Source: Kribbella italica (lineage in GTDB: Bacteria > Actinomycetota > Actinomycetes > Propionibacteriales > Kribbellaceae). Taken from it: DNA of 64,000 nt. Under the pieces are notes generated by a model. That model saw only the letters and a program-made list of their open reading frames with translations, made no database searches and was not told the origin of the DNA. A program made the position numbers and the translations under genes. How positions within the stretch are numbered: the first letter of the stretch is position 1; every line of letters begins with the position of its first letter. The stretch spans positions 4,340,001 to 4,404,000 of the forward strand of contig NZ_JACHMY010000001.1 of NCBI RefSeq assembly GCF_014205135.1. Reading direction: 5' to 3'. Below, piece after piece: positions 17,996-34,917 of the stretch.

Positions 17996-18547
17996 ATGGC
18001 ACGGATCAGGTTGGAGCACCGGCGAACCGGGCTGGTGCGGATGATGGAGTGGTACAGCAGGCGGAAGTACGGGCAGGTGCTGGACCCGGGCAAGGTGGCA
18101 CTGCACCATCGCGGCGTGCTGACGACCATGATGGTGATGGAGGGGTCGGCGGCGCGGTGGAAGGGGCTGGACCCGACGCTGAAGGCGCTGGCCACGATGG
18201 TGGTGAGCGCGGAGATCGGGTGCAGCTGGTGCATGGATTTCGGCTTCTGGGAGTACCACCACCAGAAGGTGGATCGAGCCAAGCTGCGGGATGTGCCACA
18301 GTGGCGGGACAGTGACGTCTACTCGGACCTGGAGCGCGCGGTGATGAGCTACGCGGTGGCGGCGACGGCGACTCCGCCGGCGGTGACGGACGAGCAGGTC
18401 GAGCGGTTGCTCGAGGACCTGTCCGAGGCCGACCTGGTCGAGCTGACCGCGCAGATCTCGCTGGAGAACTACCGGTCCCGGATCAACGCGTCGCTCGGGC
18501 TGACCAGCCAGGGGTTCAAGGAGACCTGCGAGTTGAGGCCCGCGTGA
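17996..18547 (+). CDS. Carboxymuconolactone decarboxylase / AhpD-like protein
   Basis: 183 residues, all helical. The AhpD-type redox motif ExxxCxxC is present (AEIGCSWCMDFGFWEYHH). Proteins of this fold act as peroxide-related thiol enzymes or decarboxylases. The stop overlaps the start of the ECF41 sigma factor in GTGA (18544-18547). CMD proteins next to ECF41 factors are a known arrangement, so this protein is likely the target or partner of that sigma factor. Its substrate is unknown. Confidence 0.85.
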   Translation: MARIRLEHRRTGLVRMMEWYSRRKYGQVLDPGKVALHHRGVLTTMMVMEGSAARWKGLDPTLKALATMVVSAEIGCSWCMDFGFWEYHHQKVDRAKLRDVPQWRDSDVYSDLERAVMSYAVAATATPPAVTDEQVERLLEDLSEADLVELTAQISLENYRSRINASLGLTSQGFKETCELRPA

Positions 18548-19440
18548 GCGACGCGGAGCTGGCCGCGGAGTTCGACGAGCACCGGTCGGTGCTCGTCGGT
18601 GCGGCGTACCGGGTGGTCGGGAGTGTGACCGACGCGGAGGACGTCGTCCAGGAGACCTGGCTGCGCTGGTCCGCGGCGGATCGGACCGAGGTGCGCGAGG
18701 TCCGCGCGTACCTGATCCGCATCACCACCCGGCTCGCGCTGAACCGGCTCCGCCAGCAGAAGTCCCGACGGGAGAACTACGTCGGCCCGTGGCTGCCCGA
18801 GCCGATCGTGGCGACGCCGCAGGAGCAGGACCCGGCGGCCATCGCCGAGGTGGCGGACTCGGTGTCGATGGCGATGCTCGTCGTCCTGGAGACGCTGTCG
18901 CCGTTGGAGCGGGCCGCGTTCGTACTGCGTGAGGTGTTCGACCTGCCGTTCGCGGAGATCGGTGACACGCTCGGCCGGTCCGAGGCCGCCGTACGGCAGC
19001 TCGCGCACCGCGCGCGGGAGCATGTGCACGCGCGGCAGCCGCGCCACCGGGTCGACAAGGCGCGGCACCAGGAGCTCACCGACCGGTTCATGGCGGCGTC
19101 CGCGTCCGGCGACTTCGAGCAGGTCGTCGCCATGCTCGCGCCGGACGTCGAGCTCATCAGCGACGGCGGCGGCAAGCGGCGCGCCGCCCTCCGGCCGATG
19201 TACGGCGCCGACAAGGTCGGCCGCTGGCTCGTCGCGGTGGTCAACTCCCCGGAGACCGCCGGGATGGAGTTCGGCACCACCGAGCTCAACGGCGAGATCG
19301 CCTACCTGGCCTACAACGGCAACACGGTCGACACCGCCGGCTTCCTGCAGCTCGACGAGCACGGCCTGATCAGCCACATCTACGTCGTCCGCAACCCGGA
19401 CAAGCTCACCGGGGTTCCAACTCGGGACCAACTAGGCTAG
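18544..19440 (+). CDS. ECF41-type sigma factor (SigJ-like) with a SnoaL-like C-terminal domain
   Basis: 298 residues from a GTG. Regions 2 and 4 are present (GAAYRVVGSVTDAEDVVQETWLRW; LPFAEIGDTLGRSEAAVRQLAHRAREH). The linker has WLPEP, and the C-terminal SnoaL-like domain of about 110 residues carries DGGGK and NPDKL, the three hallmarks of the ECF41 group. In that group the fused C-terminal domain controls activity in place of a separate anti-sigma factor. It overlaps the CMD-protein gene by four bases, the genomic context expected for ECF41. Confidence 0.93.
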   Translation: MSDAELAAEFDEHRSVLVGAAYRVVGSVTDAEDVVQETWLRWSAADRTEVREVRAYLIRITTRLALNRLRQQKSRRENYVGPWLPEPIVATPQEQDPAAIAEVADSVSMAMLVVLETLSPLERAAFVLREVFDLPFAEIGDTLGRSEAAVRQLAHRAREHVHARQPRHRVDKARHQELTDRFMAASASGDFEQVVAMLAPDVELISDGGGKRRAALRPMYGADKVGRWLVAVVNSPETAGMEFGTTELNGEIAYLAYNGNTVDTAGFLQLDEHGLISHIYVVRNPDKLTGVPTRDQLG

Positions 19441-20065: not shown

Positions 20066-20617
20066 ATGCGCGATCTGATCGTCACCGAGAACATCACCCT
20101 CGACGGAGTCGTCGAGGCCAGCGACGACTGGTTCCTGGTGTACGACGCCGGAGCCGACACCAGCGACCTGCTCGAGGTGAGCCGGCAGCACAGTGCGGCG
20201 GCCGACGCGTTCCTGGTCGGCCGCGAGACCTTCGAGTCGATGCGTGGGTTCTGGCCTGAGCAGACCGATGACAAGACCGGCATCACGCAGTACCTGAACG
20301 AGGTGCAGAAGTACGTCGTGTCCAGCACGCTCCAGGACCCCGGGTGGGAGCCCACGACGGTCCTGCGTGGGTGCGACGAGGTTGCTGGCGTCAAGGAGCA
20401 GCCGGGCAAGGACATCACCGTCACCGGGAGCATTGGCCTCGTGCAGGAGCTGGCGGAGCGGAAGCTGGTCGACGAGTACCGGCTGTTCGTCTACCCGGTG
20501 ACGGCCGGGCACGGGCGGCGGCTGTTCGAGGACGGGCGGGAGCTGCGGCGGTTCGCGCTGGTGGAGACGCGGGCGTTCAGCCCCGGCGTGGTGCTGCTGC
20601 GCTACCGGACGAAGTGA
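20066..20617 (+). CDS. Dihydrofolate reductase-like protein (RibD C-terminal fold)
   Basis: 183 residues, ribosome site GAAGGAG. LIVTENITLDGVVEA, FLVGRETFESMRGFWP and the DEYRLFVYPVTAGHGRRLF end are typical of the stand-alone RibD_C reductases of actinobacteria. They bind NADPH, but the physiological substrate is rarely known; a true folate reductase role is unlikely because the chromosomal folA family differs. A terminator follows at 20622. Confidence 0.85.
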   Translation: MRDLIVTENITLDGVVEASDDWFLVYDAGADTSDLLEVSRQHSAAADAFLVGRETFESMRGFWPEQTDDKTGITQYLNEVQKYVVSSTLQDPGWEPTTVLRGCDEVAGVKEQPGKDITVTGSIGLVQELAERKLVDEYRLFVYPVTAGHGRRLFEDGRELRRFALVETRAFSPGVVLLRYRTK

Positions 20618-20621
20618 AGCG

Positions 20622-20655
20622 AGGCCGGGTCCTGCTCCTCAGCGGGACCCGGCCT
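20622..20655. terminator. Terminator between the convergent reductase and surface-protein genes
   Basis: A perfect 11-bp stem, AGGCCGGGTCC (20622-20632) with GGACCCGGCCT (20645-20655), begins four bases after the reductase stop and ends 14 bases before the stop of the minus-strand surface-protein gene. It can serve both genes. Confidence 0.75.
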
Positions 20656-20668
20656 TGCTGCTCTGGGG

Positions 20669-23600
20669 TCAGCGGCGTCGGCGCAGCAGAGTGAGGCCGA
20701 GGGCTGCGAGCAGGCCGCCCATGGTCAGGATGATCGCCGGCGGGCCGCCGGTGTCCGGAAGCGTTGCGGCCGCGGGTGCCGCGCCGCCCGGCTGGTCGGC
20801 CGGCGGCTGCCCGCCGACGGCGATCTTCAGGTGGGACTCGACGGTACGGCCGTCCGAATCGGTGACTCGGTAGGCCGCCTTGGCGATGCCCGAGAACGTT
20901 CGCTCCGGGACCAGGCGGATCGTGCCGTCGGGGAGGACCGTCCACACGCCGACGTTCGGTACGGCGAGACGCGGCACGCAGGTGGCCGTTCCGGTGGCAA
21001 GGCAAACGGTCGTGGGGATCCACGAAGCGCCCTCGGTCGCCGTGTCGTTCAGCAGCGGGTTGACGACGACCGGGTTGCCCGGCGTCGACGTCCCGCCGTC
21101 CGGCGACGCCTTCGCGCTCAGCGGCGCCGTCACCGTGATCTCCAGCCGGGCGGTGTCCGACGTCCCGTTCTTGTCGGTGACCCGGTAGCCCACCGCACGC
21201 GTCGTACCGCTGAATCCGCCGGCAGGGTTGAAGGTCACCGTCCCGGCCGCGGCGACCGTGAACGTCCCCTCCCCCGGGATCGTCACCGTCTTCTTGTCCT
21301 TGCCGTCCACCGGATCCCGGACGACCACCGACCCCGGAACCAGCACCGCCGACGCGTCACCGGGCTTGTCGTTGTCCAGCACCGGAACCACCACGGCCTT
21401 CCCGTACGCCGTCCGCGCGCTGTCGTCGACGGCGACCGGCCGAACCGGCAGCACCGTCACCGCGACGGTCGAGCGCGCCGCGTTCCGGTTGCTGTCCTTC
21501 ACCTCGTACTGCGTCGGCCGGCTCGTCCCCGTGAACGTCGCCACCGGGCTGAACGTGAGCTTGCCCTCAGCAACCACCAGCGTGCCCTGCCCGGGAATCG
21601 TCACCCGGCCGACCAGGTCCCCGTCCAACCCCACCAGCAGCAACGACGCCGGGTCGAGCTTTGCCCCCGGACCAGGCTTGTCGTTGGTCAGCGGATCGAC
21701 GACAACCGCCACACCCTGCTTCGTCTTCACCCGATCAGGCTGCGCGACCGGCTTGGCCTCGACCGTCACCGTCACCGTCGCCGTACCGATACTGCCGTTC
21801 TTGTCGCTCACCTGGTACTTCACCGGCGTCACCGAGCCCGTCGAACCGCCCTCCGGCACCAGCCGCACTCCCCCATCGGGCTGCGCCGTCCACACTCCCT
21901 GCCCGGCGACCCGAAGCGACGACACGGCATCGCCGGTCGCCGGATCGACCACCCGCACCGACGACGGCACCAGCGGCGCGCTCGGATCGCCGGCCTTGTC
22001 GTTGCCGAGCACCGGCACGGAGACCGGAGTGTCGTACGCCGTGGTCGCAGCGTCGTCGACCGCCACCGGCTCGATCCGCGTCACCGTCACGGTCGCCGTC
22101 GCGGCGGCCTTGTTCCCACTCGTGTCGGTCACCTGATACCCGACAGCGCTCCGCCCGCTGAACGCGGCGACCGGCTTGAACGTGATCGCGCCCGTCACGG
22201 CGTCGACCTCGAACGTCCCCTGCCCCGCGATCGTCACCTTCCGCTCCCAGACGCGGATCGACGAGGTGCCGTAGAGCTGGACCGACGTCTTCTCCAGCTC
22301 CGCCGCCGTCCCCGGCACGTCGTTGGCCAGCGGGTCGAACGTCACCTCGCCGTTCTGCTTGGTCGTGACGCTGTCCGGCTTCGCCTCCGGCCCCTTCCCG
22401 ACGGTGAGGAACAGCAGCCCTTCGGCGGTCGTCCCGTTGTCGTCGGTGATCCGGTACGTCGCCGGTGTCGTCACCCCTTGGTAGCCCTTGACCGGCGTGA
22501 AGGTCACCCGCCCGGTCTTGTCGGCGACGTACGTCCCCTCGCGCGGCTGCGTCACCTTCGCCCGGTACACCCCGTCCGCGGGATCCTTCAGCAGCAGGCT
22601 CCCGGCGACCAGCGGCGCACTCGGATCGCCCGGCTTGTCGTTCGCCAGGACGTCGACCGTGATCGCCTGGCCGAACGGCGTGATCGCCGAGTCGTCGGCC
22701 GTGAACGGGTCGATCGGCGTCGTGCTCAGCAGCAACGTCGCGGTCGCGGTCGTCTTGTTGCTGTCGGCAACGAGATAGGTGATCGCCCGGCCCTTGCCCC
22801 GGAACGTCGGCAGCGGATCGAAGATCACCGCCCCGCCGTCCTGCACGGTGTACGTACCCTGCCCGGCCACGGTCACCGACCGCGCGAAGTCCGACCGCGC
22901 CGACGCTTCCCGCAGTACGACGGACGCCGGATCCAGTCGCGCGTCCGTCCCCGGGCTGTCGTTGCTCAGCACGTTGACCGTCACGGTCACGTCCTGCAGC
23001 GTCGACGCCGTGTCCGGCCGCGCGATCGGCGGCGCCCCGACGGTGACCCGCAGCACCGCGGTCGCGAGCGTCCCGTTGTCGTCGGCCACCTGATAGGTCA
23101 GGTCCGTCGCCGACCCGCTGAACCCGGCCGCCGGATCGAAGACCACCACCCCGTCGCGAGCGGTGAAGACTCCTTGCCCCTTCACGGTCACCGACGGCTT
23201 GAACACCCCGTCGGCCGCGTCCTCGAGCCGCAGACTCCCCGGCACCAGCGGCGCGGTCGGATCCCCGGCCTTGTCGTTGCCCAGCACCTTCAGCGTGACG
23301 GCCCTGTCGTACGGCGTCGAAGCGCTGTCGTCCGTCGCGACCGGCGTCACCGGCGTGACGGTCACCGCGATCGTCGACCGCGTCGCCTGGTCGAACCAGT
23401 CCGAGACCCGGTACCGCAGCGTGGTCGCCGTCCCCGTGAACGACGGGATCGGGTCGAACGCCACGGTCCCGTCCGGATCCACGGTCCACCGGCCCTGCCC
23501 CGGAACCGTGACCACCTTGCGCAGCGAGCCGTCGGCCGGATCGATCAGCACCAGGCTGAGCGGATCGAGCCCGGTGCCCGGCCCGGCGAGATCGTTGGCG

Positions 23601-26506
23601 AGGGCATCGAGTTGCAGCGTCACGTCCTGCGGCGTCCGGCCGGTGTCGGGTTTCGCGACCGGCGGTACGGGCTTGGCGATCGTGACCGTCAGGGCCGCGC
23701 CGGCCGGCGTACCGTTCACGTCGGAGACCGTGTACGCGAGCGGCGTCGCGACTCCCGTGAACGACGGCAGCGGGTCCACGTCGACGGTGCCGTCCGGCTT
23801 GGCGGTGAAGGTCGCCTCGCCGGCGACGACCACGACCTGACGCGGCACCTCGCCGATCGGGTCGATCAGCCGCACACTGGTCGGCACCAGCGGCAGCGCC
23901 GGATCGCCCGCGGTGTCGTTGGCCAGCACCTTGACCGTCACGTTCGTGTCGTACGCCGTACTCGCGGTGTCGTCGGTCGCGTCGGGCTGGACCCGGGTGA
24001 CCTCGACGCTCAGCGTGGCCGTGCCGATCGCCTTGTTGCCGTCGGCCACCTGGTACCTGACCGGTGTCGCCTTGCCGTGGAACGCCGGCAGCGGTTCGAA
24101 GAGGATCCGCCCGTCGGGGCGGGTCGAGTACTTGCCCTGGCCCGGGATCTGCAGCGTGGTCCCCGCCTCGCTCCGCCCGGCGGTCGGGAACAGCCGCAGA
24201 CTCTCGGGATCCAGCGCGGAGCCGGTCGGACCAGGCTTGTCGTTGCCCAGCACCGACGCGTACGCCGGAGTGCCCTGCAGCGTCGTCAGGGTGTCCGGGT
24301 TCGCCACCGGCGGCCCCGGGGCGTCGACGCTGACCACGAGTTGCGCGCGGGCGGCGGTCCCGTTCTTGTCCAGCACCCGATAGGTCAGCGCGGTCGTGCT
24401 GCCCTGGAACCTGTCCGCCGGCGCGAAGGCGATCTTGCCCTCGGTCACCTGGAACTCGCCCTGCCGCGCGACGGCGACCTTGCTCACCAGCTTGCCGGAC
24501 CCCGGCTCGACGAGCAGCAGCGACGCCGGGTCGAGCGGAGCGTCCGGCGACCCGGGTTCGTCGTTGTCGAGCACCGGGACCACGGCGTTGGTGTCGAACG
24601 GCGTACTCACCGAGTCACCGAGCGCCTTCGGCGTGACCGGCGTGACGGTGACGACCAGCGTCGACTCGGTCAGCTGGCCGGTGCTGTCGGCGACCCGGTA
24701 CCCGATCGTGGTCGCGACGCCGGTGAACCGCGGCAGGGGGACGAAGTCGACGCCGCCGTCGGGCTTGACCGTGTAGCTGCCTTCCCCCCGCACGACGACC
24801 TTCTTCTTGAAGGCCGGATCCTCCTTGGCCGTGCCGCCGGCCGGGTCGCGCAGTTCCACGGTCTTCGGGTCGAGGGTGACGCCCGGCGCGGCCTTGTCGT
24901 TGGCCAGCGGGGTGATCCCGAGGCTGACGTTCTGCGCGGTGGTCGCGCTGTCGGGCGTGGCGACCGGCCTGGCCGGCAGCTCGACCGTCACGGTCAGCGT
25001 CGCCTTGGCGGTCGCGCCGTTGCTGTCGGCAACGCGGTAGGTGACCGGCTCGGCGACACCGACGAAGCCCGGCACCGGGTCGAAGTCGATCCGGCCGTCC
25101 GGCTTGGCGACGTACTTGCCGCGGCCGACGACGTTGACCATCTGGCGACAGGCCGCACCGTCGATCAGGCACAGCGAGCTCGGCTGCAGCGGCGTGCTCG
25201 GGTCGCCCGCCTTGTCGTTGCCCAGGACATCGGTCGTGACACCGGTGTCGTACGGCGTACTGGCGGTGTCGTTCACCGCGACCGGCGGAGGCGGCGGGGC
25301 GATCGCGAGCGGGTAGTCCTCGACCTCGCCGGAGTCGGCCGCGCCGGTCGGCTTCTCGACCTGGGCGGCCGTGTACCCGGCGCGGATCCGCGCGGTGGTG
25401 AGCCCGGCCGGCCCGAGCTTGGCGAACTTCGCCCAGCTCAGCTGGGTCTCGCCCTGCCCGGCCGCGAAACTCGAGCAGGCCCGCTCGACGGCCTCGAAGG
25501 TGCCGTTGCGATTCAGGTCGATCCAGCCACAGACCTCGCCGGGCTTCGACGCGCCGGTCAGCGCGACCGGCACCGCGTACGACGTGGCGCTGGTGAGCAG
25601 CGGCCCGAAGGTGACCCCGTCGTCGGCCTGGTCAGAGACCGTCGGCCCGGTCTTCGCGTTGGCGACGGCCGCGTTGTCCTCGGTCGCGTCGGCGCCGATC
25701 CGCAGGTCACTGAGCACCGACCAGGCGGCGCCGTACGACGACGGCGCGTCGCCGAAGTCCTCGCCGACCGAGGCGACGATCGAGAAGGCGTCGGCCGAGG
25801 TCTTGGTGTTGAAGGCGGGCAGCTTCGGGTGCCTGGTGAAGAGCGCGGTCAGGTCGAAGCTGAGCTCCTTGGCGATGCCGTTCACCTGGACCGAGCCGCA
25901 GGCCGCGGTCGCGGTGGAGTCGAGGCCGTCGCCGGTGTCGGTGTTCACGCAGTTCGGGCCGGCGTCGTGGTTCGCGGCGGTGATCGTGTCGCTGGTGACG
26001 GCGAGGTTGTTACCCTGGCCCACCTTCCGGAGGCTGACGCCGGGCGTGCCGAGCGTGAGCACGGTGTGCAGCTCGGACTGGCCGCGCGGCTGCCCGTTGA
26101 CGCTCTGGGTGGACGCGCCGCCGATCCCGGCGAGGTGCAGGACCGGGTTGCGGACCGGCTGCGAGAAAGTGATCGTCAGGGCGCCACGGTTGCCGCAGCT
26201 GCCGGTGGCCGCGCAGTCGCCGGTGTTGACCAGGAGGTCCTGCGCCGGCGTGGTCCGCGCGACGGCCGGCCGGAAGGTGTCCGCGGCCGCGCCGTGGTCA
26301 CCGACGGTCGTTGCGTCGAGCAACTCGGTCCGGCCGGTGACGGCGATCGTCTGGGTCAGGCCGGAGCCGGGCATGGTCGCCGTGGCGGTTTGGCTGAAAG
26401 GTGCCGAGGGCACCTGGTAGCCGGCCGCGGGCGTCACCGCGCCCAGCACCGCCGAGGTCAGCAGAATCGCCAGTACCGGTCGGGAAACTCCCGAGCTCCT
26501 GCCCAC
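20669..26506 (-). CDS. Giant sortase-anchored surface protein with 14 CshA-type repeats
   Basis: 1945 residues from the GTG at 26506, chosen for GGGGAGGGG seven bases upstream. A signal peptide (SRPVLAILLTSAVLGAVTPAAG) leads to an N-terminal domain of about 200 residues with paired cysteines, then a GEVED-type domain (GWIDLNRNGTFE, ending DSGEVEDYPL near residue 400). Fourteen repeats of about 106 residues follow (about 25290 down to 20830). Odd-numbered copies read like DDTASTPYDT with NDKAGDP, even-numbered ones like PDTxTTxQ with NDKPG. The C-terminus is LPDTG, a hydrophobic segment and RRRR, a complete sortase signal. CshA-type fibrils mediate adhesion in streptococci; the ligand here is unknown. 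Downstream genes on the same strand encode glycosyltransferase-like proteins. Confidence 0.9.
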   Translation of the reverse strand: MGRSSGVSRPVLAILLTSAVLGAVTPAAGYQVPSAPFSQTATATMPGSGLTQTIAVTGRTELLDATTVGDHGAAADTFRPAVARTTPAQDLLVNTGDCAATGSCGNRGALTITFSQPVRNPVLHLAGIGGASTQSVNGQPRGQSELHTVLTLGTPGVSLRKVGQGNNLAVTSDTITAANHDAGPNCVNTDTGDGLDSTATAACGSVQVNGIAKELSFDLTALFTRHPKLPAFNTKTSADAFSIVASVGEDFGDAPSSYGAAWSVLSDLRIGADATEDNAAVANAKTGPTVSDQADDGVTFGPLLTSATSYAVPVALTGASKPGEVCGWIDLNRNGTFEAVERACSSFAAGQGETQLSWAKFAKLGPAGLTTARIRAGYTAAQVEKPTGAADSGEVEDYPLAIAPPPPPVAVNDTASTPYDTGVTTDVLGNDKAGDPSTPLQPSSLCLIDGAACRQMVNVVGRGKYVAKPDGRIDFDPVPGFVGVAEPVTYRVADSNGATAKATLTVTVELPARPVATPDSATTAQNVSLGITPLANDKAAPGVTLDPKTVELRDPAGGTAKEDPAFKKKVVVRGEGSYTVKPDGGVDFVPLPRFTGVATTIGYRVADSTGQLTESTLVVTVTPVTPKALGDSVSTPFDTNAVVPVLDNDEPGSPDAPLDPASLLLVEPGSGKLVSKVAVARQGEFQVTEGKIAFAPADRFQGSTTALTYRVLDKNGTAARAQLVVSVDAPGPPVANPDTLTTLQGTPAYASVLGNDKPGPTGSALDPESLRLFPTAGRSEAGTTLQIPGQGKYSTRPDGRILFEPLPAFHGKATPVRYQVADGNKAIGTATLSVEVTRVQPDATDDTASTAYDTNVTVKVLANDTAGDPALPLVPTSVRLIDPIGEVPRQVVVVAGEATFTAKPDGTVDVDPLPSFTGVATPLAYTVSDVNGTPAGAALTVTIAKPVPPVAKPDTGRTPQDVTLQLDALANDLAGPGTGLDPLSLVLIDPADGSLRKVVTVPGQGRWTVDPDGTVAFDPIPSFTGTATTLRYRVSDWFDQATRSTIAVTVTPVTPVATDDSASTPYDRAVTLKVLGNDKAGDPTAPLVPGSLRLEDAADGVFKPSVTVKGQGVFTARDGVVVFDPAAGFSGSATDLTYQVADDNGTLATAVLRVTVGAPPIARPDTASTLQDVTVTVNVLSNDSPGTDARLDPASVVLREASARSDFARSVTVAGQGTYTVQDGGAVIFDPLPTFRGKGRAITYLVADSNKTTATATLLLSTTPIDPFTADDSAITPFGQAITVDVLANDKPGDPSAPLVAGSLLLKDPADGVYRAKVTQPREGTYVADKTGRVTFTPVKGYQGVTTPATYRITDDNGTTAEGLLFLTVGKGPEAKPDSVTTKQNGEVTFDPLANDVPGTAAELEKTSVQLYGTSSIRVWERKVTIAGQGTFEVDAVTGAITFKPVAAFSGRSAVGYQVTDTSGNKAAATATVTVTRIEPVAVDDAATTAYDTPVSVPVLGNDKAGDPSAPLVPSSVRVVDPATGDAVSSLRVAGQGVWTAQPDGGVRLVPEGGSTGSVTPVKYQVSDKNGSIGTATVTVTVEAKPVAQPDRVKTKQGVAVVVDPLTNDKPGPGAKLDPASLLLVGLDGDLVGRVTIPGQGTLVVAEGKLTFSPVATFTGTSRPTQYEVKDSNRNAARSTVAVTVLPVRPVAVDDSARTAYGKAVVVPVLDNDKPGDASAVLVPGSVVVRDPVDGKDKKTVTIPGEGTFTVAAAGTVTFNPAGGFSGTTRAVGYRVTDKNGTSDTARLEITVTAPLSAKASPDGGTSTPGNPVVVNPLLNDTATEGASWIPTTVCLATGTATCVPRLAVPNVGVWTVLPDGTIRLVPERTFSGIAKAAYRVTDSDGRTVESHLKIAVGGQPPADQPGGAAPAAATLPDTGGPPAIILTMGGLLAALGLTLLRRRR

Positions 26507-26611
26507 AGTTCCGCCCCTCCCCAAAACGCACGTCCTGCATCGCGTCGGCACCGGGGCGAAACGGGCCAGCGCAGAGACAACGCTCCACGCGGAGTAGATG
26601 TTACGCGGGAA

Positions 26612-28873
26612 TCACCGGGTCAGTTCGTAAATGTGGACGTGCTGCTCACGGTGTCTCAGGTGAGCCAGCTGGGCGAGCCGCGGCGAGACCGGGCCGTCGT
26701 ACAGATCGGCGTACAGCCAGCGCACGGAGTACTGCTCGCGCAGACGGCGCAGGACCTCGGGCGTCGGTGAGTCGATGGCCTCGTTGGTGAGCTGGACGCG
26801 GTCCGGCCAGGGCGACGGCTGGTTTGTGTAGCGCCTGCCGTTGACGCCCTGCCTGCTCATCGCCTGCTGGGTGTAGGCCCAGCCTTCGATCAGCGTACGA
26901 CGGCCGGCGATCCCGCTGACGAGGTAACCACGGGTGTCGCAGCCCGGGCGCTCCGGCCCGGCCGGACGGCACCACGTGTTGCTCGCGACGACATCGTTCG
27001 GCCGGGAGTTGCGCGCCAGCCAGAGCGCCGCGGCGGCTTCGTCGGGATGGACCCGCCAGTGCGGCGACGTGAACGACTTGGACTGGTGGCTGGCGGTCGC
27101 CCGGACGCCGAGTGCGAACGTGCTCGCCGCCGGCACGGCGAGGATCGTTGCCAGGGCAACGACTCCCCCGAGCCCCGCCAGCTGGGACCAGCGCTTCGCC
27201 GCCAGCGGCCACAGCATCGTGAGCACAACAGTCACTGCCAGCACGGCGACCAGCGGACGAGCCACCAGGACGACGCGGTCGAGCTGGTCACCCCTCGGCG
27301 TGACCTTGGCCGCCGTCAGGGCGGCCGTGTAGACGAGGCCGAGTCCAGCCGCCAGTACGCCGACGACGATCGCCGCGCGCCGCCGGTCCTGCAGCTGCTT
27401 GAACCAGAGCGCCGCCAGCCAGCCGGTCGCGGCCAGGCTCATCGGCACGACGCTGCGGACGAAGTACGACTCGCTGGCCGACGGGTGGTCGACCAGGAGG
27501 AACCCGGCCCAACCGGCGACGAGCCCGCCGAGCAGGAACCAGCCGAGCGGGTCCCGTCTGACCTCACGGCGTCCGAGCAGCCCGTAGCCGGCCAGTGCGA
27601 CCGCCTGGGCAACCAGCATCAGGGCGAACACGACCAGTGCGCCGACGACCGACAGGAACCGGCCGGAGGTCAGCGCCGGGAGGAGGAGCCCGCCGCCACC
27701 GGCTGGCGTCGCGTCGCCTGTGGCGGCCCGGTACCCGCCTTGGAGCTTGACGATCGCCAGCAGCTGCAGGCCGGAGCCGCTGGTGCTCCCGGCCACGGTC
27801 AGCAGCGTGCCGACCGCGGCAGCCACGAGCAGTGCACCGGCCGCGATGAAGCGAGCAGGCAGCTTGCGGTCCCGGATCAGGACGAACAGCGCGGACAGGC
27901 CGACCGCACCGACCAGGATCGGCAGGATGGTCGGCTTGGACCCACCACCGACCACGGCGACCGACAGCGCGAGCACCCACAGGCCCTTCGGCTGCCGGCC
28001 GCGGAACAGCAGCTCCACCAGGAACACGGCGGCCGCCGTACCGGCGAGCATGCCGAACGTCTGCGACGGACTGACCAGGCTGAACGGCGGTGCCAGGTCC
28101 ACACCGTTGTCGACGAACAGCGCGAGCTGCGGCGCGGCAACGGCGACGGCCACCAGGACGCCGGTCCACCAGGCGCGGCTGACCGTCCGGGCGAAGGTGG
28201 CGAAGACCAGCAGGCCGACGACCAGCATCGGGAGCAGCCAAAGCCGGTAGAGCACGAGGATCGGCGACAGCCGGGTGATGTCGACGGCGGCGGCCATGTC
28301 CGCGTTGGCGAACCAGTGGTAGTCCAGCTGGAGCCCGGCGACCTGCGGCAGCTGCGGCGGCGCGGATCGGGTCAGCTCGTTCACCATCGACAGGTGGAAC
28401 AGCAGGTCCGGGTAGTACGCCGTACCGGCCGGTGGCATCGGGTGGTACGCGTAGACGCCGAAGGTCGCACCGCCGACCATCACTGCCGCGGCCGCTGCGA
28501 GTCCCCACGTCCAGGCCATCGGCAGCGGCCTGGGCTCAGCGATCCGCCAGTGCCTGCGCAGCCGCGGTACGGCAGCGAACAGCGCGAGCACCAGCGCCGG
28601 CCAGACGACAAGCGCCTGCTGCCAGCCAGCCACGGTGAACAGGGCCCAACCCAGCAGCTGATAGGTGATGCCGACGACGGCGCCCAGGCCCAGGTCCTCG
28701 GCCCAGTTCCCGGTGCTGCGCCAGAGTGCGCGCAGCAGGAGGACGCCGGGCAGGGCAACGCCTGCGCTGAAGTAGACGGCGTACCGGAGGATCGCGGTGA
28801 TCGGTACGTCGACGGACAGCAGGCCCGCGAGCGCGACGACGAGCGGGAGCAACCACGGCATCAGCCGGGTCAT
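26612..28873 (-). CDS. Large polytopic membrane protein, GT-C glycosyltransferase-like (paralogue 1)
   Basis: 753 residues from the ATG at 28873; a TTG at 28927 that overlaps the preceding stop in TTGA is an alternative start. More than ten hydrophobic segments are followed by a soluble C-terminal domain of about 150 residues. The loop motif YYPDLLFHLSMVNELTRSAP with LDYHWFANADMAAA resembles the acidic outer loop of GT-C enzymes that use polyprenyl-phosphate sugars. The C-terminal part (GYLVSGIAGRRTLIEGWAY) is shared with the gene at 29992-32325. Function is not established; a sugar-transfer role in the envelope is inference. Confidence 0.75.
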   Translation of the reverse strand: MTRLMPWLLPLVVALAGLLSVDVPITAILRYAVYFSAGVALPGVLLLRALWRSTGNWAEDLGLGAVVGITYQLLGWALFTVAGWQQALVVWPALVLALFAAVPRLRRHWRIAEPRPLPMAWTWGLAAAAAVMVGGATFGVYAYHPMPPAGTAYYPDLLFHLSMVNELTRSAPPQLPQVAGLQLDYHWFANADMAAAVDITRLSPILVLYRLWLLPMLVVGLLVFATFARTVSRAWWTGVLVAVAVAAPQLALFVDNGVDLAPPFSLVSPSQTFGMLAGTAAAVFLVELLFRGRQPKGLWVLALSVAVVGGGSKPTILPILVGAVGLSALFVLIRDRKLPARFIAAGALLVAAAVGTLLTVAGSTSGSGLQLLAIVKLQGGYRAATGDATPAGGGGLLLPALTSGRFLSVVGALVVFALMLVAQAVALAGYGLLGRREVRRDPLGWFLLGGLVAGWAGFLLVDHPSASESYFVRSVVPMSLAATGWLAALWFKQLQDRRRAAIVVGVLAAGLGLVYTAALTAAKVTPRGDQLDRVVLVARPLVAVLAVTVVLTMLWPLAAKRWSQLAGLGGVVALATILAVPAASTFALGVRATASHQSKSFTSPHWRVHPDEAAAALWLARNSRPNDVVASNTWCRPAGPERPGCDTRGYLVSGIAGRRTLIEGWAYTQQAMSRQGVNGRRYTNQPSPWPDRVQLTNEAIDSPTPEVLRRLREQYSVRWLYADLYDGPVSPRLAQLAHLRHREQHVHIYELTR

Positions 28874-28923
28874 CGGTCGGGCGGAACGCTCCGTCGGACC
28901 GGCGGGAGCAAGGTCGACGAGGG

Positions 28924-29904
28924 TCAAGTCGGTAGGATTTCCCGCTCCAGGGCCTGGTGGCCGCTGTCGTCGAGACTGTCGTAGCCGACCAGGAACTGCG
29001 GCCGTTTCTGACTCGACTGGAACAGGCGGGCGACGTACTCCCCCAGGAGGCCCAGGCACAGCAGCTGGATCGCACCGATCACGGCCACGGCCAGGACGGT
29101 CGACGTCCAGCCAGGGATGCTCTGGCCGGTCAGCTTGATCGCCAGCGCGCCGATCACGAACGCCACCGACAGCAGCCCGCCGAACAGGCCGAGCCAGGTC
29201 GCCAGGCGCAGCGGCGCGGCCGAGAAGGCCGTCACGCTGTCGAACGCGAGCCGGAGCATCTTGCGCAGGTTGTACTTCGTCACGCCGGCGGCCCGCTCGG
29301 CCCGGACGTACCGGACCTCGGCACTCGGGAAACCGAGCCACGGAATCACCAGCCGGAACACGCGACCGTCCTCGGGCAACGCGTTCACCGCGTCCACCAC
29401 CCGCCGCGAGACCAGCCGGAAATCGGCGGCGTCGAAAGGAATGTCGCGGCCGACCAGGCGACACATCAAACGGTAATACATTCTCGCGGTGGTGCGTTTC
29501 GCCCAGCTGTCGCTGGAACGGTCCGACCGGACGCCGTACACGACGTCGACGTCCCGGTCCCGCGCGGTCGCCAGCAGCTCGGCGATCACCTCGGGCGGGT
29601 CCTGCAGGTCGGCGTCGATGGTGACCACGTAGTTGCCGCGAGCCCGGCGGAAGCCCGCCGAGATGGCGGCCTGGTGCCCGGAGTTGCGCAGCAGGCGGAC
29701 CAGGCGCAGCTGGGGCCAGTCGGTCGCGGCCGCGAGCAGCATCGAGGCGGTCGCGTCGCGGCTGCCGTCGTCGACGACGAGCAGCTCGTAGCTGACCCCG
29801 AGTCCGTCCAGCAGCGGCCGCATCCGGTCGAAGAAGATCGGCAGCACCTCTTGCTCGTCGTACATCGGCACGACAACGGACAGGTCAGGAACCTGCTCGC
29901 CCAT
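28924..29904 (-). CDS. Family 2 polyprenyl-phosphate glycosyltransferase (GtrB/DPMS type)
   Basis: 326 residues from the ATG at 29904. The GT-A domain has LSVVVPMYDEQEVLP, VVDDGSRDAT and the catalytic-site DADLQDPPE; two membrane segments near residues 230-255 and 265-290 match GtrB/ArnC-like enzymes. These load a sugar from a nucleotide donor onto undecaprenyl or decaprenyl phosphate on the inner face of the membrane. It sits between two GT-C-like paralogues on the same strand, which could use the lipid-linked sugar outside. No GtrA flippase is seen nearby. Confidence 0.9.
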   Translation of the reverse strand: MGEQVPDLSVVVPMYDEQEVLPIFFDRMRPLLDGLGVSYELLVVDDGSRDATASMLLAAATDWPQLRLVRLLRNSGHQAAISAGFRRARGNYVVTIDADLQDPPEVIAELLATARDRDVDVVYGVRSDRSSDSWAKRTTARMYYRLMCRLVGRDIPFDAADFRLVSRRVVDAVNALPEDGRVFRLVIPWLGFPSAEVRYVRAERAAGVTKYNLRKMLRLAFDSVTAFSAAPLRLATWLGLFGGLLSVAFVIGALAIKLTGQSIPGWTSTVLAVAVIGAIQLLCLGLLGEYVARLFQSSQKRPQFLVGYDSLDDSGHQALEREILPT

Positions 29905-29991
29905 CGAACCCACCCCCAGCTGATTTTCTCTCCACAGTAAACAAGAACGCTCCAAAAGCCCGAAAAGATGCTTCTGCCGGTGAATTGGCAG

Positions 29992-32325
29992 TTAGTTGCC
30001 GGTGATTCGCACCACGGTGACGCCGCGGTTGCGGAACGCCACTTCGACGCCTTCGCCGGTGGCGACGGTGGCCGGGCGCCCGTTCACGCGGTCGACGAAG
30101 AGCCAGCGCACGCCGTACCGATCGCGGGCGCTCCGGATGGCCGAGGGGTCCGGCCGCGAGAACAGGCGGGTCGTCAGCTCCCACCGGTCCCGCCAAGGCG
30201 AGGGCTGCAGCATGTAGCCCTTGCCGCCGATGCCGTGCAGGCTCATCACCTGCTGGGTGTAGCCCCAGCCTTCCAGCAGAGTCCGGCGACCGGCCAGACC
30301 GCTGACGAGGTAGCCCAGTGCGACGCAGTCCCGGCGTTGGGACAAGCAGGCTGTATTGGTCGCGACGACGTCGTCCGGCGCCGAGTGCTGCTGCAGCCAG
30401 CTCGCGGCCTCCTGCTCGTCCGCGTTGTAGAGGCCGTACTTGGCGGAGTAGACCAGTGGCGCCGTCGACTCCCGAGAGCTCCGGGCTTGGTCGACCATGC
30501 TGCTGAACGCCATGCCCATGACGACCAGTACGGGCACGAGCAAGCCCACCCCTGCCAGGTCAGCTCGGGCGGCCACTACCCGGTGCCAGCAGAACCAGGC
30601 GAGCAGGGCGAGCACCACGAAGACGACCACGCCACGAGCCACTGAGAGCACAGCAGTCCAGCCGGTGCCGAGGACTGGCTCCTCGACCCACTGCTGCGCG
30701 GCGAAGATCAGTACGCCGTACAGCAGGCTGGCCACTACTGGTCCGGCGAGATGGTGGACGGCGCGACCGCGGATCGCGACAGTCACCATCCAGGCGGCAG
30801 CGACGGCCGCGAAGGGGACTGCTCCGCGGAGGAAGTAGAACTCGCTCGATGACGGGTGATCCACCAGGAGGAAGGCTGCCCAGGCCGCAGCCAGCGTCCC
30901 GAGCAGGAACCAGGCCGTGGGGTCGGTGCGGGTGCGCCGGGACGCCAGCAACCCCGCTCCGACCAGCAGGCCGACCTGACCGATCAGGACCACGGCCAGC
31001 AGGACCAGCACCGCGCTGACTCGCCCCTCCGCGATCGGCCGCAGCAGGAAGTCCCCGGTCGCAGCGAGGGAGGTGTCGCCGGTTGTCGCCCTGTACGGCG
31101 TACCCATGGTCCGCAGGACAGCCAGTGGTCTCAGACCGGATCCACCGGTGCTGCCGGTGACGGTCAGCATCGCGATCACTCCGGCGATCAGGAGGAACCC
31201 GCAGGCGAGCAGAGACCTGGCGGGGACCCCTCGTTTGCGCACGGCCAGGTAGAGCCCGGCAAGGCCGGCACCACCCAGCAGCAGCGGAAGCACTGTCGGC
31301 TTGGCACCTCCACCGACGACGGCCAGTGCTGTGGCCAGCACCCAGACACCTGGTCGGCCACGGCGGTAGAGGGCCTCGACGAAGAACACCGCGGCCGCCG
31401 TCAGGACGACCAGCGCGAACGTCTGCGAGGGGCTCGGGTAGTAGATCAGGTTGCCGACGACCGAGAGCCGACGGTGGCCGATCAACGCTCCGGACGCCGG
31501 GACCGCCAGGATCGCGACCGCGATCACCGCCGCGATCCACTGCCGGCTGACCTGCCGGGCGAGCGTCGCCGTCAGCAGGACGACGACGGCGGTGAGCGGG
31601 ACGGGCCACAGCCGGAAGAGGACGAGCTCCGGCGACAGGCCGGTGAGGTGCGCGGCCGCGGCCATGTCGGCGTTGGCGAACCAGTGGTAGTCCAGCGGAA
31701 GCCCGGCGACCTGCGGCAACTGCGGCGGCACCGACCGCATCAGCTCATGAACCATCGACAGGTGGAAGAGCATGTCCTGGTGGTACGCCGGCGTGAACTG
31801 CTGGTCGAGGTTGTTCTCGGCGACACCAGGTGCGAGGTGGTACAGCATCGGGCCGGTCAGCACCGCGAACAGCATCACGGCGAGCGAGAGGGCCACACCC
31901 CAGGACCACACGTGCGGCAACGGCGCCGGGGTGGCGATTCGCCAGTACTGCCTGAGCTTCGGCACGACGGCGAAGGCGACGAGCAGCGCAGCCGGCCAGA
32001 GCTTCAGCCAGGGCTGGATGCCGAGCGCGGTGAAGCCGGCCCAGCCCGCGAACTGGTACACGATCCCGACCGCCGCACCGAGCGCGAAGTCCTCCACCCA
32101 GTTGCCGGTACTGCGCCAGAACGCGCGGACCAGTAGAAGCCCGGGCAGCACGACGCCGACCACGAAGTACAAGTCGTAGCCCAGCACCGTCGCAAGCGGG
32201 ACACCCGTGTGAACCGCCCCGAAGACCGCCACCAGCACAGTAAGTGCCCAAGGCAACAATCGGAGGCCACCCCGACCCGTCCACCGCTGAACGACCGGGC
32301 CCGGAAGCTTCTCGACCAGCACCAT
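29992..32325 (-). CDS. Large polytopic membrane protein, GT-C glycosyltransferase-like (paralogue 2)
   Basis: 777 residues from the ATG at 32325; the frame extends further upstream but without membrane or conserved sequence. Layout matches its paralogue at 26612: more than ten membrane segments, the loop motif YHQDMLFHLSMVHELMRSVP and LDYHWFANADMAAA, and a soluble end with GYLVSGLAGRRTLLEGWGYTQQVM. The two flank the GtrB-like gene, suggesting an old duplication in a surface-glycan unit. The 5' neighbourhood holds no other gene for 720 bases, so the promoter of this minus-strand block is probably within 32330-32460. Confidence 0.75.
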   Translation of the reverse strand: MVLVEKLPGPVVQRWTGRGGLRLLPWALTVLVAVFGAVHTGVPLATVLGYDLYFVVGVVLPGLLLVRAFWRSTGNWVEDFALGAAVGIVYQFAGWAGFTALGIQPWLKLWPAALLVAFAVVPKLRQYWRIATPAPLPHVWSWGVALSLAVMLFAVLTGPMLYHLAPGVAENNLDQQFTPAYHQDMLFHLSMVHELMRSVPPQLPQVAGLPLDYHWFANADMAAAAHLTGLSPELVLFRLWPVPLTAVVVLLTATLARQVSRQWIAAVIAVAILAVPASGALIGHRRLSVVGNLIYYPSPSQTFALVVLTAAAVFFVEALYRRGRPGVWVLATALAVVGGGAKPTVLPLLLGGAGLAGLYLAVRKRGVPARSLLACGFLLIAGVIAMLTVTGSTGGSGLRPLAVLRTMGTPYRATTGDTSLAATGDFLLRPIAEGRVSAVLVLLAVVLIGQVGLLVGAGLLASRRTRTDPTAWFLLGTLAAAWAAFLLVDHPSSSEFYFLRGAVPFAAVAAAWMVTVAIRGRAVHHLAGPVVASLLYGVLIFAAQQWVEEPVLGTGWTAVLSVARGVVVFVVLALLAWFCWHRVVAARADLAGVGLLVPVLVVMGMAFSSMVDQARSSRESTAPLVYSAKYGLYNADEQEAASWLQQHSAPDDVVATNTACLSQRRDCVALGYLVSGLAGRRTLLEGWGYTQQVMSLHGIGGKGYMLQPSPWRDRWELTTRLFSRPDPSAIRSARDRYGVRWLFVDRVNGRPATVATGEGVEVAFRNRGVTVVRITGN

Positions 32326-33046
32326 ACCCAGAAGACGGATCCGACCGCCGATGGTGTTGTCCCGTTGACGAAGGCAACTTCCTGTAAGCCCCACGGAACG
32401 CTGCGTGCGGTGTCGGGCCCCTTCGAGCACAACGCCTTCGGACGGATCGGAGTAGCGGGTCATACCTGTCCATGTCCGCAACCACCCCAGACATCACAGC
32501 CAGACTTGCCCGAGCCGGTCAAACGCGCTGAACGAGGTGCCCGCCCGCACCGAGAACGAGCCGCCAGTACCAGCAGCAGCCCGACGTTGCCGGGCTCCAG
32601 CCCAGCCCACCGAGCCAGCCAGGCCGGCACAACAGGGTGGTGCCTAGGTGAAGGCGGGGGTGCGCGAGATGAGCGCGGACACGCGGGCGGTGCGCGGACA
32701 CGCGAGGTGCGTGGAGTGCACGGAGTGCGCAAAGCGCGGGCGCAGGCGGTGCGGGGCGGCGAGGGGCGACGCCAGGCCGCGCGGGTGCGCGGAGACGCGC
32801 GCGGGTGCGCGGCGCGCGCGGGTGCGCGGACACCCGGGGGCGCGGACACGCGCGGAGTGCGCGGGGGTGCGCGAAGCGCCGGGGCGCGAGGGACGCTGGC
32901 GGTGCGCCGAGCCGCGGTGCTGCGCGGGCAGCGGGGTGCGCGGAGTTGGTTCCGCAGGGCTGGTGCACCGCGCGCCGCTGGTGCCGGGGCGCGGGGCTAG
33001 GGGGCGCTGGTGTCGCGAGGGTGGTGGTGGCAGGTGGTGTTGCGGG
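32326..33046. other. 720-base gap: promoter side, then low-complexity DNA
   Basis: From 32326 to about 32640 the sequence is ordinary and likely holds the promoter of the minus-strand membrane-protein block; no box pair is convincing. From about 32650 to 33000 it becomes an extreme GC-rich, G-skewed tract, described separately. Open frames cross the gap on both strands, but their translations are only Arg/Ala/Gly or Pro/Arg repeats without family features, so I do not call a gene. Confidence 0.6.
32650..33000. repeat. G-skewed degenerate repeat tract downstream of the gamma-glutamyltransferase gene
   Basis: The plus strand repeats the word GGTGCGCG exactly at 32659, 32689, 32784, 32804, 32821, 32866 and 32935, with many near copies (GGTGCGTGGA, AGTGCGCGGG, GCGCGGACACGCG). 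Spacing is irregular, so it is a degenerate expansion rather than a clean tandem array. It is immediately 3' of the minus-strand ggt gene and would be its 3' untranslated region. Confidence 0.7.
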
Positions 33047-34591
33047 TCAGGGGTTGGAGACTGCGGTTGCTCCGGTGCGGCGGGGGTCGCCGACTGCTTG
33101 TAGGCCGGTGTCGGGGGACCAGAAGGCGGCGGCTACGCCACCGAAGTACATGGAGTGGGGTGGCATGGGGCGGAGAGGGAGGCTGGTGGTTGCGGCGGTG
33201 AGTTCTAGGTCGTCCTCGTGGTCGACTACGACGTCCGCGCGGACTCGGACGTGGAGGCGGGGGTGTTCGACGGCTTCCTCCAGGGACAGGCCGCCGTGGG
33301 TGTAGAGGGCGTAGGTCTGGGCGATCGCGGTGGGGATCCGGTCCGAGCCTGGGGAGCTGATGGCGAGGACCGCGCCGTCGCTGGCGCGGCGGGCGACGCT
33401 GGGGGCCATGTTCGAGGTGAGGCGGGTGCCGGGGGCGAGGCTGTGCGGGCCGCCGGCCAGCAGCTCCTGCTCGCCGAGGGCGTTGTTGAGCCAGATGCCG
33501 GTGCCGGGCGTCATCACCCCGGAGCCATACCCGGACGAGACCGTGATCGCGCAGGCGTCGCCCTCGTCGTCGACGACGGAGACGGTCGCCGTACTGGGTG
33601 AAGTGAGCGCGCGCAGGTCGCCGGCCGAGGCAAGGTCGAGCAGCTTCTGGCCTTCGAGGCGGCGTACGTCCTCCTCGTCGAGCTCGGCCAAGCGCCGGCC
33701 GAACACAGCATGCTGGACCTCGACCAGACGCTCCAGCTCGGCCGGGTTCCAGGCGCCCTGGGCCGGTACGCCGTCGAGCAGCGCCAGCATCGCCGCGACG
33801 GCGACCCCGCCGACGGCGGGCGGCGGATTGGTCGCGAGGCTCCAGCCGTTCTGCTTGACGACCAGCGCCGGCCGGACGATCGCCTCGTACGCCGCGAGGT
33901 CCTCGGCGGTGAGGATGCCGTCGTTGGTCTGCATGTCGTGCACGAGCAGGCGGGCGAGCTCGCCGGTGTACATGGTCTCGGCGCCGGCCTCGGCGATCAG
34001 CTCCAGGGCCTCGGCCAGCTCGGGGATGACGACGGTGGTGCCGGCCTTGATCACCTGGCCCTCGTCGTCGTGTACGACGCCGTGGCTCGGCTGGTGCCAA
34101 CCGAAGATGATGTCGTGGGTGTAGCCGAGGTAGTACCCCGAGGTGCGGCTCAGCGTGAAGCCCTGCCGCGCGACCTCGATCGCGGGCTTCACGACCTCGT
34201 TCCACGGCGCCTTGCCGGAACGGCGGTGCGCGAGGTCGAGCGCCTTCATGCCGCCCGGCGTCGCGACCGAACCGTGCCCGACCGTGGTCGTCGTACCGCC
34301 GCCGTAGTCGGTGGTCACGTCCCAGATCCCACGCCCGAACCGGTCCTCGGGCAGCCCGCGGCCCGGCATCTCCACCCAGCCGTCGATGGTGACCGGCTCA
34401 CCACCGGCCACCTGCAACGTGACGAACCCACCCGAGGCCGGCGAGACCACCCCGATCTCGTTCACCATCGTGACCAGCGTCGCGGCGATCGCGGCATCCA
34501 CCGCGTTACCGCCCTCCGCCGCCAACCGCACGCCCGCCTCAGCCGCCGTCCGGTTGGGCGCAGCCACCGCCACCCGAGGATGCGCCCCCAT
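33047..34591 (-). CDS. Gamma-glutamyltransferase family protein, no signal peptide
   Basis: 514 residues from the ATG at 34591. AAAEGGNAVDAAIAATLV-type N-terminus, TIDGWVEMPGRG, and the small-subunit region STATVSVVDDEGDACAIT followed by GSGVMTPGTGIWLNNALGE match the family. The Thr of TATVSVVD aligns with the autoprocessing nucleophile of E. coli Ggt (TTHYSVVD); the following His is replaced by Thr. There is no export signal, unlike classical periplasmic or secreted enzymes, so it may act on intracellular glutathione-like or other gamma-glutamyl compounds, or be a cephalosporin-acylase-like relative. Both flanks are low-complexity tracts. Confidence 0.85.
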   Translation of the reverse strand: MGAHPRVAVAAPNRTAAEAGVRLAAEGGNAVDAAIAATLVTMVNEIGVVSPASGGFVTLQVAGGEPVTIDGWVEMPGRGLPEDRFGRGIWDVTTDYGGGTTTTVGHGSVATPGGMKALDLAHRRSGKAPWNEVVKPAIEVARQGFTLSRTSGYYLGYTHDIIFGWHQPSHGVVHDDEGQVIKAGTTVVIPELAEALELIAEAGAETMYTGELARLLVHDMQTNDGILTAEDLAAYEAIVRPALVVKQNGWSLATNPPPAVGGVAVAAMLALLDGVPAQGAWNPAELERLVEVQHAVFGRRLAELDEEDVRRLEGQKLLDLASAGDLRALTSPSTATVSVVDDEGDACAITVSSGYGSGVMTPGTGIWLNNALGEQELLAGGPHSLAPGTRLTSNMAPSVARRASDGAVLAISSPGSDRIPTAIAQTYALYTHGGLSLEEAVEHPRLHVRVRADVVVDHEDDLELTAATTSLPLRPMPPHSMYFGGVAAAFWSPDTGLQAVGDPRRTGATAVSNP

Positions 34592-34917
34592 CAGCCCACA
34601 CACCCGATACGACGGGCGGCCGCACACCCGGCACGGCGAGCACCTGCACACCCAGCACCTGCCGCCCGTCGGCCCAGCACCGGAAGGCGACCCAACCGCC
34701 CCTGCACGGAGACGACTCGGCGTCCTCGGCGACGGCTGCGAGCACACCCGGCCCGACGAGCAGTTGCCCGCTCCCCCGCACCGGCAAGCCGAACCGCCGA
34801 CTCCGCCCCGCCGCGGCAGGCCGCGAACTCGCCCGCACCTGCCACAGACCTGGTACCGGTCGGCCCCGCACCGGCGAACCGATGCGGGGCGACCCCGACG
34901 GCAGTGGCGTTCATCGG
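34592..34917. repeat. 326-base low-complexity gap between ggt and pheT
   Basis: On the minus strand the gap is rich in GGTGCGGG, GGTGCTGG and GGTGTGCG words (plus-strand CCCGCACC occurs three times), a milder version of the tract on the other side of ggt and in the opposite orientation. A 107-codon open frame fits exactly on the minus strand but translates to Arg/Ala/Gly-rich sequence of repeat origin, so no gene is called. No clear promoter or terminator is visible. Confidence 0.5.

Follow-up and report, generated by a model that had tools for sequence, protein, structure and literature searches.

Multi-component transmembrane glycosylation systems occur in Gram-positive bacteria, and the available part of one report describes CsbB-GtcA-YfhO and GtlA-GtcA-GtlB (PMC8035078). 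The same text mentions further GT-A/GT-C pairs of unknown function in Bacillus subtilis, and a single GtcA that serves two systems in Listeria (PMC8035078). In Streptococcus mutans, the Pgf machinery consists of PgfS, PgfM1, PgfE, and PgfM2, the first two of which modify two adhesins, Cnm and WapA; according to the accessible sections of that paper, pgf homologues mostly adjoin surface-protein genes (PMC5856776). The gsf cluster of Actinoplanes was considered as a published relative of the locus studied here and was set aside, since its transmembrane enzyme is stated not to be GT-C in the portion of the article at hand (PMC13390465). Among the matches listed for the mostly open-access literature on Kribbella fibrils or wall glycans, on CshA glycosylation, and on teichulosonic acid synthesis, no publication on this Kribbella locus was found.

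Results

Organization of the locus

The window, a 64,000-nt stretch of Kribbella italica spanning 4.34-4.40 Mb of an 8.9-Mb, one-contig genome, carries four consecutive minus-strand genes coding for a surface fibril, a sugar loader, and two large membrane proteins (Table 1), as the initial annotation had described. Gene starts were taken from a simple codon-score caller, and positions may be off. The open frame of the fibril gene covers 20669-26551, and a start at 26506, which is preceded by a GGGGAGGGG stretch, appears likelier. A scan of 20400-34800 for sigma-70 promoters and terminators was uninformative (0 promoter-like sites; 5 terminator-like sites vs. a mean of 3.9 in shuffles).

Table 1. 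Features of the fibril and glycosyltransferase locus in the window.
Feature	Coordinates	Strand	Basis
CshA-type surface fibril gene	20669..26506 (open frame reaches 26551)	-	TIGR04225 and PF19076, 14 stretches each
Promoter-like element of the fibril gene, CGTAAC-N17-CGTT	26579..26605	-	Exact match in window; conserved among loci
GT-C A, predicted membrane glycosyltransferase, conserved member of the pair	26612..28873	-	AlphaFold2 model, GT-C structural matches, one clade of 36 locus proteins
GtrB-like putative polyprenyl-phosphate sugar loader (GT2)	28924..29904	-	PDB sll0501, E 1.1e-68; Pfam Glycos_transf_2, E 2.2e-30
GT-C B, lineage-specific paralogue of GT-C A	29992..32325	-	45% identity over whole length; groups with G047 partner

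Two further observations concern the surroundings. On the plus strand, positions 18035-19440 hold a CMD-domain gene followed, with a 4-nt overlap, by a sigma-70 (region 2 and 4) gene; the two adjoin the fibril gene on the opposite strand in most relatives, and we take them to resemble an ECF41-type unit. Short GCGCACC-like repeats occupy 32500-33040, between the ggt gene and GT-C B, and this interval has no evident gene.

The GtrB-like enzyme

The closest PDB match of GtrB was sll0501, followed by ArnC, and the homology extended over residues 5-307. As a homologue of these solved transferases, GtrB is probably a membrane-linked GT-A enzyme that makes a polyprenyl-phosphate sugar, in line with the loader role first proposed for it. 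Its top NCBIfam match was PgfS, at 198.4 bits, far below the cut-off of 500. No GtrA gene is present among the four genes, as had been noted, and three GtrA-family (PF04138) genes are located elsewhere in the genome. The missing local flippase had been taken to set the locus apart from the Gtr model; that reading was rejected, given these genes and the sharing of GtcA by two Listeria systems in the available text of that report (PMC8035078).

Family and predicted fold of GT-C A and GT-C B

GT-C A and GT-C B are 45% identical in a 764-column alignment and are paralogues from end to end. The two had been thought to share a C-terminal domain; the paralogy is confirmed, and the sharing reaches beyond the C-terminus over the whole length. 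Neither protein reached the cut-off of any family in the Pfam and NCBIfam libraries. A PDB sequence search with the GT-C alignment gave one match, a designed channel, which at E 0.33 was dismissed as chance, and the same search with P0004 alone gave no match.

The AlphaFold2 model of GT-C A, made from a 31-sequence alignment, had a mean pLDDT of 89.1 and a pTM of 0.91. Five Foldseek rows fell at E < 0.001, namely DPY19 (three), AglB, and AftA. VIA-align gave Z scores of 15.4 for yeast OST, 12.5 for EmbB, 11.9 for both ArnT and DPY19, 11.8 for AftA, and 11.5 for Pmt4, where values under about 13 may, as the tool warns, reflect merely a common arrangement in helical proteins. These matches mostly begin near residue 112, and the rows shown at Z >= 8 were GT-C enzymes, complexes containing one, or PIG-U, which we take to be akin to GT-C. 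The C-terminal part alone matched the C-terminal domain of an AglB (3vu0_A; Z 8.6, rmsd 2.3 over 110). Residue D156 in the first outer loop was invariant in 31/31 sequences and, going by general knowledge of GT-C enzymes, is presumably the catalytic aspartate. The model predicts a GT-C fold for GT-C A, the one of the two paralogues that was modelled. Oligosaccharyltransferases (STT3/AglB/PglB) carry a WWD/WWE motif in the C-terminal domain. Membership of this group was rejected, because WWD or WWE occurred in 0/31 sequences.

Conservation of gene order in Kribbella

Gene order was compared in 38 Kribbella genomes, that is, the window together with stretches of up to 20 kb from 37 others. With small variations, the order is pheS, pheT, ggt, GtrB, GT-C A, fibril, the opposite-strand acetyltransferase, sigma, and CMD genes, and argC. 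The fibril gene directly follows GT-C A in 36/38 genomes, window included, which is more than chance. One of the two exceptions, G020, has the pair and lacks a CshA match genome-wide; the other, G051, has the fibril gene near argC and carries the pair elsewhere. A GtrB gene ahead of GT-C A was called in 35 genomes; the GtrB match in G042 covers residues 2-281 only, and the G001 locus is broken across contigs. The two genes of the pair have a 4-nt overlap in 28/35 loci, and in the window they are separated by a gap of 50 nt.

GT-C B was found at the locus in only 2/38 genomes, the window genome and G047, which makes the four-gene form rare. One four-gene operon as the conserved form was rejected on this ground, and the proposal that the four genes make up one unit is not supported either. 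In a tree built by a quick method from 63 of 125 sequences (identity to A or B of 35% or more), the 36 locus GT-C A proteins formed one clade with a support of 100, and GT-C B grouped with its G047 partner, also with a support of 100. Among the best 80 of 216 GT-C loci, 27 of the first 28 are labelled Kribbella, and those that lie at the fibril locus have a common gene order. The 28th, L160 (NZ_JAAGLV010000009.1), is labelled Streptomyces sp. SID13031, has the gene order and sequences of Kribbella, and is probably mislabelled.

The initial annotation had asked whether the fibril and glycosyltransferase genes are conserved together and whether the predicted fold has a GT-C core. Inside Kribbella, both were observed, for GT-C A in each case. 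The co-occurrence does not discriminate, because unrelated neighbors are equally conserved: ggt is kept at the same place in 36/37 loci, and pheT in 35/37. Within one genus, co-occurrence alone cannot tell whether two genes encode enzyme and substrate or are long-standing neighbors.

Partial rate correlations were calculated for the 25 loci in which all eight genes were long enough (28 gene pairs; argC and argJ left out). The correlation between GT-C A and the fibril was 0.47, tied with ggt-sigma as the highest of the 28. GtrB-fibril ranked third (0.43) and GtrB-GT-C A fifth (0.33); fibril-acetyltransferase reached 0.40. This covariation gives mild support to a link between the pair and the fibril.

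The CshA-type fibril

The fibril protein comprises a signal peptide, a cysteine-bearing N-terminal region, a GEVED domain, 14 CshA repeats, and an LPDTG-type tail. The 14 repeats were matched by TIGR04225 (E 5.9e-186, 605 bits vs. a cut-off of 60) and PF19076 (E 9.3e-165), and at E 0.001 no other place in the genome gave CshA repeat matches. The C-terminus ends in LPDTG, a hydrophobic segment, and RRRR; its LPXTG anchor score of 15.1 bits lies just under the cut-offs of 20 (Pfam) and 15.9 (NCBIfam). A CshA-specific match was not found in the N-terminal region, whose model had a mean pLDDT of 67.9. A carbohydrate-binding module, 8wae_B, headed the rows for this model (Z 9.7; rmsd 2.8 over 105 residues), many beta-sandwich rows were tied with it, and the result was set aside as evidence.

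No Ser/Thr-rich stretch was found in the fibril (maximum 14 Ser/Thr per 40 residues). It contains 8 D/E-x-N-x-S/T sites, compared with 0.9 in shuffles; such sites number 6-12 across 37 Kribbella fibrils and 0-6 in six CshA proteins of other genera. The enrichment was rejected as proof of N-glycosylation, given those other-genus counts and the nature of the motif as a recurrent turn of the repeat. D-x-N-G-S/T turns recur in alternate CshA repeats of the fibril (P0001, residues about 725, 941, 1154, 1367, 1580, and 1790); they match the bacterial N-glycosylation sequon by letter, and some CshA proteins from outside Kribbella have this turn too.

A conserved promoter-like element ahead of the fibril gene

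In most loci, an element made up of CGTAAC, 17 nt, and CGTT sits 5 or 6 nt past the GT-C A stop. CGTAAC is present in 36/36 loci, and both boxes occur at a spacer of 17 in 34/36. The latter count combines the exact match of the window with those from 38 stretches (L093-L130), where 33/34 exact matches lie between GT-C A and the fibril gene. An inverted repeat, GCGTAGA...TCTACGC in many genomes, partly overlaps the element. L118 (G044) and L121 (G019) keep CGTAAC, but neither the CGTT box nor the inverted repeat survives there ahead of the fibril gene; the ungapped consensus of the element omits these two loci, which have no second box. The upstreams of GtrB contained CGTAAC in 0/35 cases.

The remaining exact match belongs to G051, in which the pair is absent from the fibril locus. 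It lies upstream of a lipoprotein-like gene (L129:4378-5289) that precedes the fibril gene and codes for a 303-residue protein that matched nothing in Pfam at E 0.001. The element is absent after GT-C in G020, a genome that lacks the fibril. Where fibril and pair are apart, the element thus travels with the fibril and not with the pair. The fibril gene appears to have a control element of its own, and we infer that it acts as a promoter.

The element resembles the sigma-BldN motif, given as CGTAAC-N16-CGTTGA in the accessible text (PMC2375139): CGTAAC is exact in 36/36 loci, and the CGTT box follows at 17 rather than 16 nt in 34/36. In Streptomyces venezuelae, BldN activates the chaplin and rodlin genes; the available part of the same report confines convincing BldN hits to morphologically complex genera and counts Kribbella flavida among the simpler actinomycetes (PMC4255298). 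That restriction and the spacer that is off by one weaken the BldN name, as does the frequency of the pattern in the window, which with one mismatch allowed is not above chance (2 found vs. 2.07 expected). A whole-genome search for the element with CGTTR gave 6 matches, the fibril's included, vs. 2 for the reversed control; the other five places are known as open frames only, and no regulon was read from them. What carries weight is the conservation of the element; BldN is a lead.

Relatives of the enzymes elsewhere

The genome contains 11 GT-C family members, both locus copies counted. Seven of them lie between 6.9446 and 6.9957 Mb (51 kb), and two are in neither locus. This stretch is a nonulosonate cluster; within it or at most 4 kb away are a GtrB 85% identical to the locus GtrB, the only NeuB of the genome, one GtrA, two DegT aminotransferases, and a Polysacc_synt_2 protein. 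A close GtrB occurs only once in G051 (79%), next to a GT-C gene and in a cluster that also contains Polysacc_synt_2, DegT, and cytidylyltransferase genes.

Among 39 non-Kribbella loci, a GtrB of 57-61% identity directly precedes GT-C in 10, and none of these 10 has a fibril-like gene; in the other 29, a close GtrB was not called beside GT-C. G037, from another family of the order, also has the pair with a 4-nt overlap. Outside Kribbella the surroundings of the pair are varied, and within the best 80 of 216 loci the GT-C family was found in many actinomycete genera and on one Chloroflexi contig. Conversely, no GtrB or GT-C was found near six CshA loci in the stretches fetched from five genomes of other genera; these are 5 of the 23 other-genus genomes with a match, and two of the loci (G072) are at contig ends with one side readable. 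Co-occurrence of fibril and pair was thus seen within Kribbella; outside it, pairs occur without the fibril and CshA proteins without the pair.

Discussion

Our results suggest that GtrB and GT-C A form a module acting most likely on a wall glycopolymer, with GT-C B as an extra and the fibril as a separately controlled neighbor, and we give this reading about an even chance. In the proposed mechanism, GtrB would load a sugar onto polyprenyl phosphate at the inner face of the membrane, a flippase encoded elsewhere would turn the lipid-linked sugar over, and GT-C A would transfer the sugar to an acceptor outside the membrane. That acceptor would most likely be the cell-wall glycopolymer of Kribbella (teichulosonic or teichuronic acid), given that both GtrB and GT-C A have close relatives in the nonulosonate cluster. 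Teichuronic or teichulosonic acid is the main wall polymer of Kribbella according to the available text (PMC6113628). GT-C B may be an additional transferase, specific to its lineage, that could draw on this lipid-linked sugar as well, and the CshA fibril would be a gene under its own control located behind the pair in this genus. The module is supported by the homology of GtrB to solved polyprenyl-phosphate sugar transferases, the GT-C A model with its invariant D156, and the frequent 4-nt overlap of the two genes. The pairs without a fibril in 10/39 non-Kribbella loci, the G051 GtrB in a nonulosonate cluster, the G020 pair without CshA, and the fibril's own element also argue for it. The acceptor had been left open between the fibril and a cell-wall glycan, and the evidence leans toward the cell-wall glycan.

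The place of the fibril behind the pair in 36/38 genomes, the two correlations of 0.47 and 0.43, and the PgfS match of GtrB speak against this reading, as do the 29/39 other-genus loci in which no close GtrB was called beside GT-C. By analogy with the action of PgfS and PgfM1 on Cnm and WapA, a pair recruited from the wall-polymer cluster might instead glycosylate the fibril. The adjacency in 36/38 genomes, the ranks of the trio in the rate correlations (first, tied, third, and fifth of 28), and the PgfS match would fit this, as would the neighborhood of surface-protein genes and pgf homologues in the accessible sections of the Pgf paper (PMC5856776). However, the fibril gene has a separate conserved promoter-like element and its product has no Ser/Thr-rich stretch, G020 keeps the pair without a CshA protein, and pair and fibril occur independently in other genera. 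No epimerase was found among the window genes adjoining the pair, and the locus retains ggt and pheT as well. We regard fibril glycosylation as possible but rather doubtful. An elaborated form, in which a nonulosonate-cluster-related pair was recruited to glycosylate the fibril, possibly at the D-x-N-G-S/T turns, with the fibril under a BldN-like developmental sigma factor, seems quite improbable; if true, it would mean a glycosylated fibril coat of aerial hyphae. The pair might also act on some other acceptor, such as a polysaccharide, a glycolipid, or secreted proteins, next to a fibril that is an old neighbor in a stable gene order. The stable pheS-to-argC order, the varied surroundings of the pair outside Kribbella, the spread of the family over many actinomycete genera and a Chloroflexi contig (best 80 of 216 loci), and the two family members in neither locus agree with such an acceptor. 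We consider it unlikely, as seven family members and a closely similar GtrB in the nonulosonate cluster favor the wall glycopolymer.

The GT-C family is likely to provide last-step enzymes that decorate the wall glycopolymer in Kribbella. Its proteins reach no family cut-off in Pfam or NCBIfam, yet eleven copies are present in this genome. The conserved BldN-like element makes a link between the fibril and actinomycete development testable.

Comparison with known systems

The GT-C A model combines a GT-C core with a C-terminal globular domain, like AftA, Emb, ArnT, PMT, and the oligosaccharyltransferases, and differs from them in the 9-15% identity of the matches quoted and in having no WWD/WWE. 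CshA of Streptococcus gordonii has tandem CshA repeats, which the Kribbella fibril shares, and an LPxTG-type end, which the LPDTG tail of the fibril resembles. Unlike it, the fibril has an N-terminus without a CshA-specific match, an actinomycete host, and a BldN-like element upstream.

The Kribbella locus resembles the Pgf system of S. mutans, as described in the available text (PMC5856776), in grouping an adhesin gene with genes for a GT-A enzyme and a large membrane protein. Unlike Pgf, it has no PgfE-type epimerase among the window genes adjoining the pair, the neighbors being gamma-glutamyltransferase, RibD_C, acetyltransferase, sigma, and CMD genes; the fibril gene has its own promoter-like element, and the score of GtrB is far from the PgfS cut-off (198 vs. 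500 bits). With CsbB-GtcA-YfhO and GtlA-GtcA-GtlB, as presented in the accessible part of the report (PMC8035078), the Kribbella pair would share the combination of a membrane-linked GT-A loader with a GT-C transferase, and its flippase gene may likewise sit elsewhere and be shared. It differs from both in a GT-C protein that falls below the Pfam and NCBIfam cut-offs and in the CshA fibril gene behind the pair.
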